Positions 38,765 through 41,263 of a stretch of DNA of 41,800 nt are shown piece by piece. A program made the position numbers and the translations under genes. A model generated the notes under the pieces. The model worked only from the letters and a program-made list of their open reading frames with translations. It did no database searches and had not been told where the DNA came from. Every line of letters begins with the position of its first letter. Positions within the stretch are counted from its first letter, which is position 1. Source of the DNA: a bacterium (GTDB taxonomy: Bacteria; Acidobacteriota; Polarisedimenticolia; J045); the NCBI GenBank assembly GCA_021372775.1, contig JAJFTU010000107.1, forward strand, positions 1-41,800, read 5' to 3'.

Positions 38765-38836
38765 GCGTCGATCGTACCCCGCGCCGGGCCGAGATGAGCG
38801 AAAATGAACCGCTCGACGATCGAGGAGGCTGGGACC

Positions 38837-39202
38837 GTGCGCGGACAAAAGGGCGAAGGGCGGCTCGGGCTGATCATCTGGCTGGCGATCTTCGCGGCGG
38901 CGATCTTCGCCGCGGCGCGCATCATTCCGGCCAAGACCCACGTCATGGACCTGCACGACTACTGCGACCGCGAACTGCAGAACGTCGTCTCCTCGGGGCG
39001 GGACTTCGACCAGGAGCGGTTCCTGCAGAACGTCCTGGCGAAGGCCAAGGAAGTGAACATCCCGCTGGAGAAGAACCAGCTTCAGCTCACGATGACCAGC
39101 GAAACCGTGACGCTGCGGATGCAGCACGAGGTCGTCGTGGACCTCGCGGTCTACAAATGGGTTTGGCCCTACGACAAGACCTTCGTCCACCGCCGCTTCT
39201 GA
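38837..39202 (+). CDS. Hypothetical single-pass membrane protein
   Basis: The protein has 121 residues. GTG 38837 is preferred because GAGGAGG lies eight bases upstream; ATG 38804 in the same frame would add 11 residues and lacks such a site. An N-terminal membrane helix (LGLIIWLAIFAAAIFAAARI) is followed by a 90-residue domain, probably periplasmic, with MDLHDYCDRELQNVVSSG and a beta-rich LQLTMTSETVTLRMQHEVVV. The pattern resembles pilin-like or DUF4845-type small proteins in shape, but I do not recognise the family. It is divergent from the squalene/phytoene synthase gene. Confidence 0.75.
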   Translation: MRGQKGEGRLGLIIWLAIFAAAIFAAARIIPAKTHVMDLHDYCDRELQNVVSSGRDFDQERFLQNVLAKAKEVNIPLEKNQLQLTMTSETVTLRMQHEVVVDLAVYKWVWPYDKTFVHRRF

Positions 39203-39318
39203 CGGCGGCGGCGATCCCGCCGATCGCGGTCTCCGTCGCGCGCGACCTTCATCGCGCGCGGCCTTCGTCGCGCGACGCGTGCGGCGATTGGGCCGGCGGC
39301 GGCGATTGGGATTCGCTG

Positions 39319-39509
39319 TAGGGGCGGCTGGCGCGCTCCGATGATCGTCGGAACAACGACGCCTCCACCGCGCCTGCCGCCCGAGGTGATTCACGCGCAA
39401 TCCTGCCTTTAACGACGAAAGGCAACGTTGCGCGTGAATCAGGTCGGGCGGCAGGCGCGGAGGAATCCTGAGCGCGGCAACGATCATCGGAGCGCGCCAG
39501 CCGCCCCTA
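39319..39509. mobile_element. 191-bp inverted repeat, MITE-like, flanked by TA
   Basis: The outer arms 39319-39348 and 39480-39509 are perfect 30-bp inverted repeats beginning TAGGGGCGGCTGG. Inner arms 39368-39400 and 39428-39460 pair over 33 bases with two mismatches, and TGCCTTT/AAAGGCA closes around a 7-base loop at 39411-39417. Nineteen bases on each side between the arms do not pair. The TA at each tip fits the target duplication of IS630/Tc1-mariner-type elements, and non-coding elements with GTAGGGGC-type ends are known. No transposase is present. Confidence 0.7.
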
Positions 39510-39624
39510 CCGCCCATCCCGATCACGGCGCCTATCAGCATCACGACGACCGACCCAGTCACGGCGGCCGTCGCCATCACGACGTCGAATTCACGCCGTC
39601 GAATGAACGTGTCGAACACGACAA

Positions 39625-39699
39625 GCGGGTCGTGTGGCGGGGGGCGGCGGCGGAGCATTGCCCCGTCGCGGAGCCGCCGCCCCCCGCCGCCCGACCCGC
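39625..39699. repeat. Long GC-rich palindrome A
   Basis: Arms 39625-39650 and 39674-39699 pair at 24 of 26 positions around a 23-base loop. The inner part (GCGGCGGCGGAGC, then GCGGAGCCGCCGCC) is shared with palindrome B about 230 bases to the right, which suggests copies of one repetitive extragenic element. Confidence 0.75.
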
Positions 39700-39857: not shown

Positions 39858-39930
39858 CGCGTCGGGCGTGCGGGGGCGGCGGCGAGCCGATGCCCGGTCC
39901 GCGGAGCCGCCGCCCCCGCCGCACGACGCG
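39858..39930. repeat. Long GC-rich palindrome B
   Basis: Arms 39858-39883 and 39906-39930 pair with only three irregular positions around a 22-base loop. Its core resembles palindrome A (CGGAGCCGCCGCC right arm, and a GCCCGGTC loop against GCCCCGTC). Confidence 0.75.
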
Positions 39931-39988: not shown

Positions 39989-41263
39989 TTACGCGGTCAA
40001 CACGTGCCCCGCGGCGACCGTCGCGAAGAGACGCGGCGCGCCGAACTGGTAGAGGAGCTGCCGACGCTCCGCCGCGTCGAGAACCAGCAGATCGCAGCGC
40101 TTCCCGACCTCGACGCTCCCCGCGACCTCCGCGAGCCCCGCGGCCGCGGCGCCGTTGAGCGTCGCGGCGACGATCGCCTCGTCCACCGTCAGACCGCACA
40201 GCAGGCAGCCGAGCTGCATCGTCACCGGCAGCGACTCGCAAGGGCAGGAGCCGGGGTTCACGTCGGTCGAGAGGGCCACCGGCACGCCGAGCTCGACCAT
40301 CCGCCGCGCCGGCGCCGCTTCCTTCATCCGCAGGAAAAGCGTGGCCGCCGGCAGCAGCACGGCCACCGTGCCGGCCGCGGCGAGCGCCTTCAGCCCCGCC
40401 TCGCTGGCGTGCTCCAGATGCTCCGCGCTGACCGCGCCCATCTCCCCCGCGAGCTCCGCCCCGCCGTCCGAGGCGAGCTGGTCGGCGTGGACCTTGAGCC
40501 CGAGCCCCGCGCGCCGTCCGGCGTCGAGCACCCGCCGCGCTTCCTCGACGCCGAAGGCGTTGGCGTCCACGAAGACGTCCACGAACCGCGCGAGGCCGGC
40601 CTCGGCGACGTGCGGGATCATCTCGCCGCAGAGCGCGTCCACGTAGCGCGCCCGCGCGGCGGCGTCGCCGCGCGCCTCGGGCGGCATCGTGTGCGCGCCG
40701 AGGAACGTCGTCGCCAGCGCGTACGGCCGCGTGGCCGCCGCGCGCCGCGCCGCCTCGAGCATCTTGTACTCGGCCTCGGCGCAGAGGCCGTAGCCGCTCT
40801 TGACCTCGAAGGAGGTCACGCCCCAGCGGGCCATCCGGTCCATCCGCGCGCCGGCCGACGCCGTCAACTCGTCGAGCGAGGCGGCGCGCGTCTTCTTCAC
40901 CGTGCCGAGGATCCCGCCGCCGGCGGCGGCGATCTCGGAATAGGTCGCCCCGGCGAGCCGCTTCTCGAACTCGTCGGCCCGGTCGCCGCCCCAGACGAGG
41001 TGCGTGTGCGCGTCCACGAGGCCGGGCAGCACCGCGCGCCCCTCGACGTCGAGGCGCCGCGCCCCCGGAAGCGGCTCGACCGACGCGGCCAGCGCGTCCT
41101 CGGGGCCGACCCAGACGATCTTCCCCTCGCGGGCGGCGACGGCGCCGCGCGGCAGCACGGCGACGCGCCCCTGATCGGCGCCGCGCGCCGGCGCCGGACC
41201 GGCGCAGGTCGCGAGCTCCGAGGCGCCGCGGACGACGAAATCGGCGCGGACGCGGTCAGTCAC
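39989..41263 (-). CDS. hutI: Imidazolonepropionase
   Basis: The protein has 424 residues and starts at GTG 41263. It is a metal-dependent amidohydrolase that opens imidazolone-propionate to formimino-glutamate in histidine breakdown. Metal and substrate residues appear in LVDAHTHLVWGGDR, a KSGYGL region, FLGAHTMPPEA, LKVHADQL, SAEHLEHAS and LSTDVNPGSCPCESL. Length and motif order are normal. The start overlaps the end of the DivIVA-like gene by 8 bases. No other hut gene is in the window. Confidence 0.97.
   Translation of the reverse strand: MTDRVRADFVVRGASELATCAGPAPARGADQGRVAVLPRGAVAAREGKIVWVGPEDALAASVEPLPGARRLDVEGRAVLPGLVDAHTHLVWGGDRADEFEKRLAGATYSEIAAAGGGILGTVKKTRAASLDELTASAGARMDRMARWGVTSFEVKSGYGLCAEAEYKMLEAARRAAATRPYALATTFLGAHTMPPEARGDAAARARYVDALCGEMIPHVAEAGLARFVDVFVDANAFGVEEARRVLDAGRRAGLGLKVHADQLASDGGAELAGEMGAVSAEHLEHASEAGLKALAAAGTVAVLLPAATLFLRMKEAAPARRMVELGVPVALSTDVNPGSCPCESLPVTMQLGCLLCGLTVDEAIVAATLNGAAAAGLAEVAGSVEVGKRCDLLVLDAAERRQLLYQFGAPRLFATVAAGHVLTA

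Follow-up and report, generated by a model that had tools for sequence, protein, structure and literature searches.

The closest described systems are the GTAG REPs (Di Nocera et al. 2013, PMC3733652). According to the parts of that paper available to us, GTAG REPs have stems of 6 to 13 bp with complementary stem variants, form dimers that mostly carry GTAG outside, and lie downstream of genes, between convergent and co-directional genes. Some of the dimers are inserted within longer palindromes, and a family is often found in one species. Their size is described in the same parts as 20 to 50 nt, mostly with short loops; the stems of GTAG-24 reach 12 to 13 bp with mismatches, and the loops of GTAG-14 reach 27. 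For the REPs of the E. coli type, the available sections of PMC8266576 report that irregularity of the stem is needed by the enzyme and that cleavage takes place at CT beside the structure. In REPINs, singlets are decayed compared with doublets, as described in sections of PMC3116915, and a model in print, available to us in part (PMC3686654), holds that REPs persist after their RAYT is lost and decay later.

The element in the 41,800-nt stretch of DNA analyzed here (the window, contig C107) is best explained as two REP-type hairpins with GTAG tags, joined head to head. With a probability that we put at roughly 0.77, it represents a high-copy, non-autonomous intergenic repeat of this type that is confined, as far as searched, to its own genome. 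This reading is based on the anatomy of the element, its copy number, its intergenic placement, the conservation of the stem within the hairpin, and the presence of the same element in unrelated flanks.

The inverted repeats at 39319-39509 are present, exact, and far beyond chance. Conserved ends of the form GTAG...CTAC add an outer G and C and give the element an extent of 193 bp (Table 1), and the TA that appears at the tips is therefore only the inner two letters of a tetranucleotide that is conserved. The architecture is not that of a simple TIR element. Two 66-nt hairpins with their tails facing in are joined by a 61-bp palindrome, and each unit consists of GTAG, a stem in which one T.T mismatch separates 7 bp from 6 bp, a 33-nt variable loop, and a 26-nt tail. 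Folded as RNA, the whole element reaches -155.7 kcal/mol (z = -15.8), with none of 200 dinucleotide shuffles as good; this extreme fold and the recurrence of the element across the genome confirm the inverted-repeat element that the original prediction had placed here. The 61-bp linker is also found at C454:875-935, free of units kept by the profile described below. Two more long G+C palindromes, at 39636-39690 and 39870-39920, belong to a second repeat family, and similar sequences were seen by eye, uncounted, in the flanks on the GTAG side of several further copies.

Table 1. Positions of the element, its parts, and the neighboring features in the window.
Feature	Position	Strand	Remark
Whole head-to-head dimer: hairpin, palindromic linker, inverted hairpin; ends GTAG...CTAC	39318-39510		
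Left hairpin: GTAG 39318-39321; stem arms 39322-39335 and 39369-39382; loop 39336-39368	39318-39383	+	RNAalifold stem, 72 units
Stem of left hairpin: 13 bp, one T.T mismatch	39322-39335 / 39369-39382	+	
Right hairpin, inverse: GTAG 39510-39507; stem arms 39506-39493 and 39459-39446; loop 39492-39460	39445-39510	-	
Palindromic linker: two 26-nt tails and 9-nt center (39410-39418)	39384-39444		DNA fold z -6.8
Degenerate 18-bp direct repeats, starting right at the CTAC end	39511-39582		
Upstream gene, 132 aa, no Pfam match; ends 115 bp before the element	38804-39202	+	
Convergent neighbor: amidohydrolase, imidazolonepropionase-like (HutI); 478 bp from the element	39989-41263	-	

The genome that carries the element is a 3.67-Mb draft in 494 contigs that is 99.6% complete. 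A genome-wide search for further copies, suggested by the original prediction, gave 107 blastn matches on both strands with the 191-bp sequence. A pattern for the canonical hairpin gave 103 matches and its reversed control none, and the exact 18-nt core occurs at 96 places, compared with one for the control. The proposal of a dispersed, non-autonomous element is borne out by these copies and by the same element in unrelated flanks. Outside this genome, the 18-nt core is found exactly in only one other of the 396 genomes of the phylum, as a single match. With one mismatch allowed, the 41 genomes of the class include 5 with a match; apart from the present genome, each of these has one match, which equals the level of the reversed control, and none of 59 other genomes from the family, class, and phylum has a blastn match to the element. 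A search of the window at the Rfam gathering threshold matched no family.

A profile of the half element (92 nt, from GTAG inward) gave 132 matches in the genome stretches searched; eight of these at 33 bits or below were dropped, leaving 124 units at 68 sites. Many of the blastn matches correspond to half an element, some of them in tandem and others as solo hairpins that lack a second end. Counting neighbors no more than 150 bp apart, the kept units form 54 pairs, with GTAG outside in 40, direct order in 9, and GTAG inside in 5. Clusters in which two or three dimers follow one another, their stem, loop, and tail types combined in different ways, occur at C426:4903-5381, C405:5804-6304, and C12:3322-3877.

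The pairing that is conserved among the copies is that of the single hairpin. RNAalifold on 72 aligned units returns GTAG and the 13-bp stem with its T.T mismatch, exactly the unit stem, and the 13 stem pairs are paired in 100% of cells, one pair being A-T in 44 units and C-G in 28. Among 97 ungapped units (from 111 of the 124 kept units, the 97 whose inner motif sits in its usual position), bases 8 and 62 form A-T in 56 and C-G in 41, and are never mismatched. Covariation in the stem is limited to this change between two states at one pair, with very little variation at the remaining 12. The GTAG, unpaired and beside the stem, is conserved in the same 97 units at G 96, T 93, A 97, and G 95, figures that are somewhat biased because these units were picked by a near-GTAG start. 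The loop occurs in two broad types, which are distributed over the stem states as AT/type 2 in 54, AT/type 1 in 2, CG/type 1 in 26, and CG/type 2 in 15 (51, 5, 24, and 17 in a rough first split, same order). Both stem states are found with either loop type, so simple linkage does not fully explain the 8/62 pairing.

In 35 intact dimers, the 8/62 pair within the hairpin is kept in all 68 readable arms (two of the 70 arms being unreadable), whereas base 8 is the same in both outer arms of just 9 dimers and differs in the other 26. The unit is therefore the short hairpin and not a long TIR, and the long cruciform of the window copy arises simply from the similarity of its two hairpins. Dimers mostly pair one A-type with one C-type hairpin (26 of 35), and as a consequence of this joining their outer arms are not perfect inverted repeats. 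Outer arms match perfectly over 7 nt in 21 of the intact dimers, over 31 nt in the window copy alone, and over at most 20 nt in the others. The perfect 30-bp outer repeats reported originally thus exist in the window copy, where they extend to 31 nt with the flanking G and C, but they are peculiar to that copy among the 35 dimers. The accompanying suggestion, that perfect arms imply recent activity, fails for the family as a whole, in which the arms pair within the hairpin and most dimers differ at position 8.

The original prediction also took the TA tips as a sign of IS630/mariner-like mobilization. An IS630/Tc1/mariner-type MITE would have 30-bp TIRs, would duplicate TA on insertion, and would be moved by a DDE transposase, and the TA at both tips, the inverted termini, and the duplication of the whole 193-bp element in unrelated flanks are what such an element would display. 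However, the G before and the C after the TA are as conserved as the TA itself, with GTAG at both ends in 28 of the 35 intact dimers, and around the 35 dimers no target duplication of 2 to 10 nt was found above the level of shuffled pairs. The disagreement of the outer arms at position 8 is at odds with terminal repeats, and hairpins often stand singly, with no second end. The search for an IS630-like transposase with these ends turned up a single DDE_3 match in the whole genome; its frame is broken, and its contig has neither the core motif nor these ends. We consider an IS630/mariner origin very unlikely.

The window element and the copy at C30:16425-16617 are identical at 181 of 193 positions, with only 24 and 29 identical positions in the 100-bp flanks, and a near-identical element in unrelated flanks shows that copying took place, with GTAG/CTAC as its ends. 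The base preceding GTAG (n = 101) is C in 64, T in 25, G in 12, and never A. Hairpin identity is 0.732 among solo units (n = 42) and 0.719 among dimer units (n = 80); tail identity is 0.463 in solos compared with 0.605 in dimers (0 of 300 shuffles), two solos near contig ends being left out. Solo hairpins are thus as alike as those of dimers, which suggests that the hairpin may be a unit on its own. Synteny around the HutI neighbor in named genomes yielded 27 relatives from several phyla at 39 to 55% identity, too distant for a comparison of empty sites.

With genes called by a codon-usage script, none of the 68 sites overlaps a called gene by more than 30%, the maximum being 6%. The sites are convergent in 26 cases, co-directional in 18, and divergent in 2 (2 of 46 classified), with one side unknown in 22; a baseline of intergenic regions from 100 kb gave 17 convergent, 37 co-directional, and 15 divergent. 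The window copy is itself located between a convergent gene pair. The TAG of GTAG serves as the called stop codon of the adjacent gene at 12 of the 114 ends. This placement would be expected of a selected RNA or DNA structure at gene 3' ends, such as a bidirectional terminator, an mRNA stabilizer, or a gyrase or nucleoid site, with copies made by recombination instead of a transposase, and the very stable fold and equal conservation of solo hairpins are in keeping with it. Yet just one genome of 396 has the structure at such copy number, its ends are precise in unrelated flanks, Rfam offers no match, and the GTAG tag is conserved although it lies outside the stem. A structure of this kind, spread by recombination, is an unlikely but not far-fetched alternative.

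It is far harder to credit that the repeat is a palindromic element read in frame within proteins, like the Rickettsia RPEs. In most units one frame is almost open and gives RGGWRAP.IV...PPRLPPD, with the A/C and T/G variants at third-codon positions, but entropy is equal over the codon positions (0.64, 0.70, and 0.69 bits), several units contain frame-shifting single-base indels, and no site lies in a called gene. Readings as attC sites, group II intron ends, or Helitron ends were considered and dropped.

As the original prediction states, the element has no transposase next to it as far as was seen. In the draft genome (99.6% complete, 494 contigs), the Y1 transposase model PF01797 has no matches and the RAYT model NF047646 none at E <= 1. 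NF047646 matches 6 of 12 genomes of the family, in no case above the curated cut-off. In G007, which belongs to another genus of the same family, a 165-aa RAYT-like protein (NF047646 E 2e-22, 79.4 bits, cut-off 80) is encoded by a gene flanked by GTAGCGGCGCCCCTTGGGGCGCCG hairpins. This genome has 57 copies of GTAGCGGCGCCCCTTGGGGCGCCG within two mismatches, with none for the control, and 31 copies read by eye in 20 stretches have a similar tail and an inverted partner in most cases. In G010, a RAYT-like gene adjoins GTAGGGGCGGGATGCATCCCGCCCC, which has seven matches within three mismatches. The RAYT-like genes beside GTAG hairpins in these two genomes indicate that RAYT-type REPs exist in the same family. 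A further family member, G008, has several RAYT-like or Y1 transposase genes (L110, L116, and L118).

We infer that the elements described here were probably mobilized in the RAYT manner. Copies would spread as single-stranded folded DNA, and an HUH tyrosine transposase (RAYT/TnpA-REP-like) would recognize and cut the GTAG plus hairpin. Family relatives still encode such an enzyme beside their own GTAG hairpins, and in this genome the enzyme has been lost or has escaped detection. Once transcribed, a hairpin at the 3' end of a gene may serve as an mRNA end or stability element.

The GTAG ends have a second association, with tandem repeats. Arrays with a score of at least 50, a period of 9 to 36, and 2.3 to 23.5 copies end within 3 nt of GTAG at 10 of 101 ends, compared with 0.39% of random non-coding positions from the same stretches, an enrichment of about 25-fold in stretches that were chosen for holding units and in which arrays beside contig ends may be missed. 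With a score of at least 80, the figures are 8 of 101 ends and 0.16%. Arrays that start or end exactly at the GTAG border are seen at 39511-39582 in the window, C132:3371-3664, C220:23207-23548, and C269:12459-12900. The repeat units of the arrays mostly look mutually unrelated when the flanks are read by eye, an 18-bp type recurring at several sites. Those REPs of G007 that were read have few arrays and none long at GTAG, and we found no account of minisatellites abutting REPs in the literature searched, which comprised listings and parts of papers. It is conceivable, if improbable, that the GTAG end is a site that amplifies neighboring DNA, so that the hairpins would generate tandem repeats as well as being mobile repeats. 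Our guess is that a nick or a stalled fork at GTAG could cause the adjoining 9 to 36 bp to be replicated repeatedly, and that unrelated minisatellites would in this way grow outward from the element edge.

The long loop, the palindromic linker, and the tandem-repeat arrays ending at GTAG are new details with respect to the described GTAG REPs. They add a long-loop, palindrome-linked form to this group, in a lineage where other genera keep a RAYT and short-loop REPs. The genomes of the lineage, some having the enzyme and some lacking it, form a natural series for understanding how REPs spread and persist after losing RAYT, and the exact junction of GTAG and minisatellite is a testable link from REP hairpins to the birth of tandem repeats.

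The resemblance to the GTAG REP super-family, as the available parts of PMC3733652 present it, includes the unpaired GTAG outside an imperfect stem, the complementary stem variants, the high copy number, the intergenic location, and the occurrence as single units or as inverted dimers with GTAG outside. The mismatched 13-bp stem, the insertion of some dimers in longer palindromes, the siting between convergent and co-directional genes, and the narrow distribution are further common points; size is the one described feature that does not fit. In contrast to what those parts describe, the loop here is 33 nt and the hairpin 66 nt, beyond the described size, the dimer has a palindromic linker of 61 bp that includes conserved tails of its own, and tandem-repeat arrays end at the GTAG border. 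Because the 20 to 50 nt range is descriptive and not defining, we call the elements a variant.

Like the REPINs with RAYT in the sections of PMC3116915 available to us, the elements are inverted doublets that probably move as a unit, and whole dimers have been copied to new flanks. Unlike those REPINs, they are found in a genome with no RAYT detected, and their solo hairpins are not more decayed than the dimer ones; in contrast to the REPIN singlets of the same source, the solos show greater divergence in the tail only. By description, the GTAG with a long irregular stem also resembles REPtron Ec of group 2 TnpA-REP, for which the portions of PMC8266576 at hand give a single-strand cleavage model; the elements here differ from it in having no known cognate enzyme. 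Within the family, the REP/RAYT set of G007 has a perfect 9-bp stem, a 2-nt loop, and a RAYT-like gene, in which it differs, but it shares with the elements described here the GTAG, hairpin, and conserved tail, the inverse partners, and, in most copies read, a pyrimidine before GTAG.
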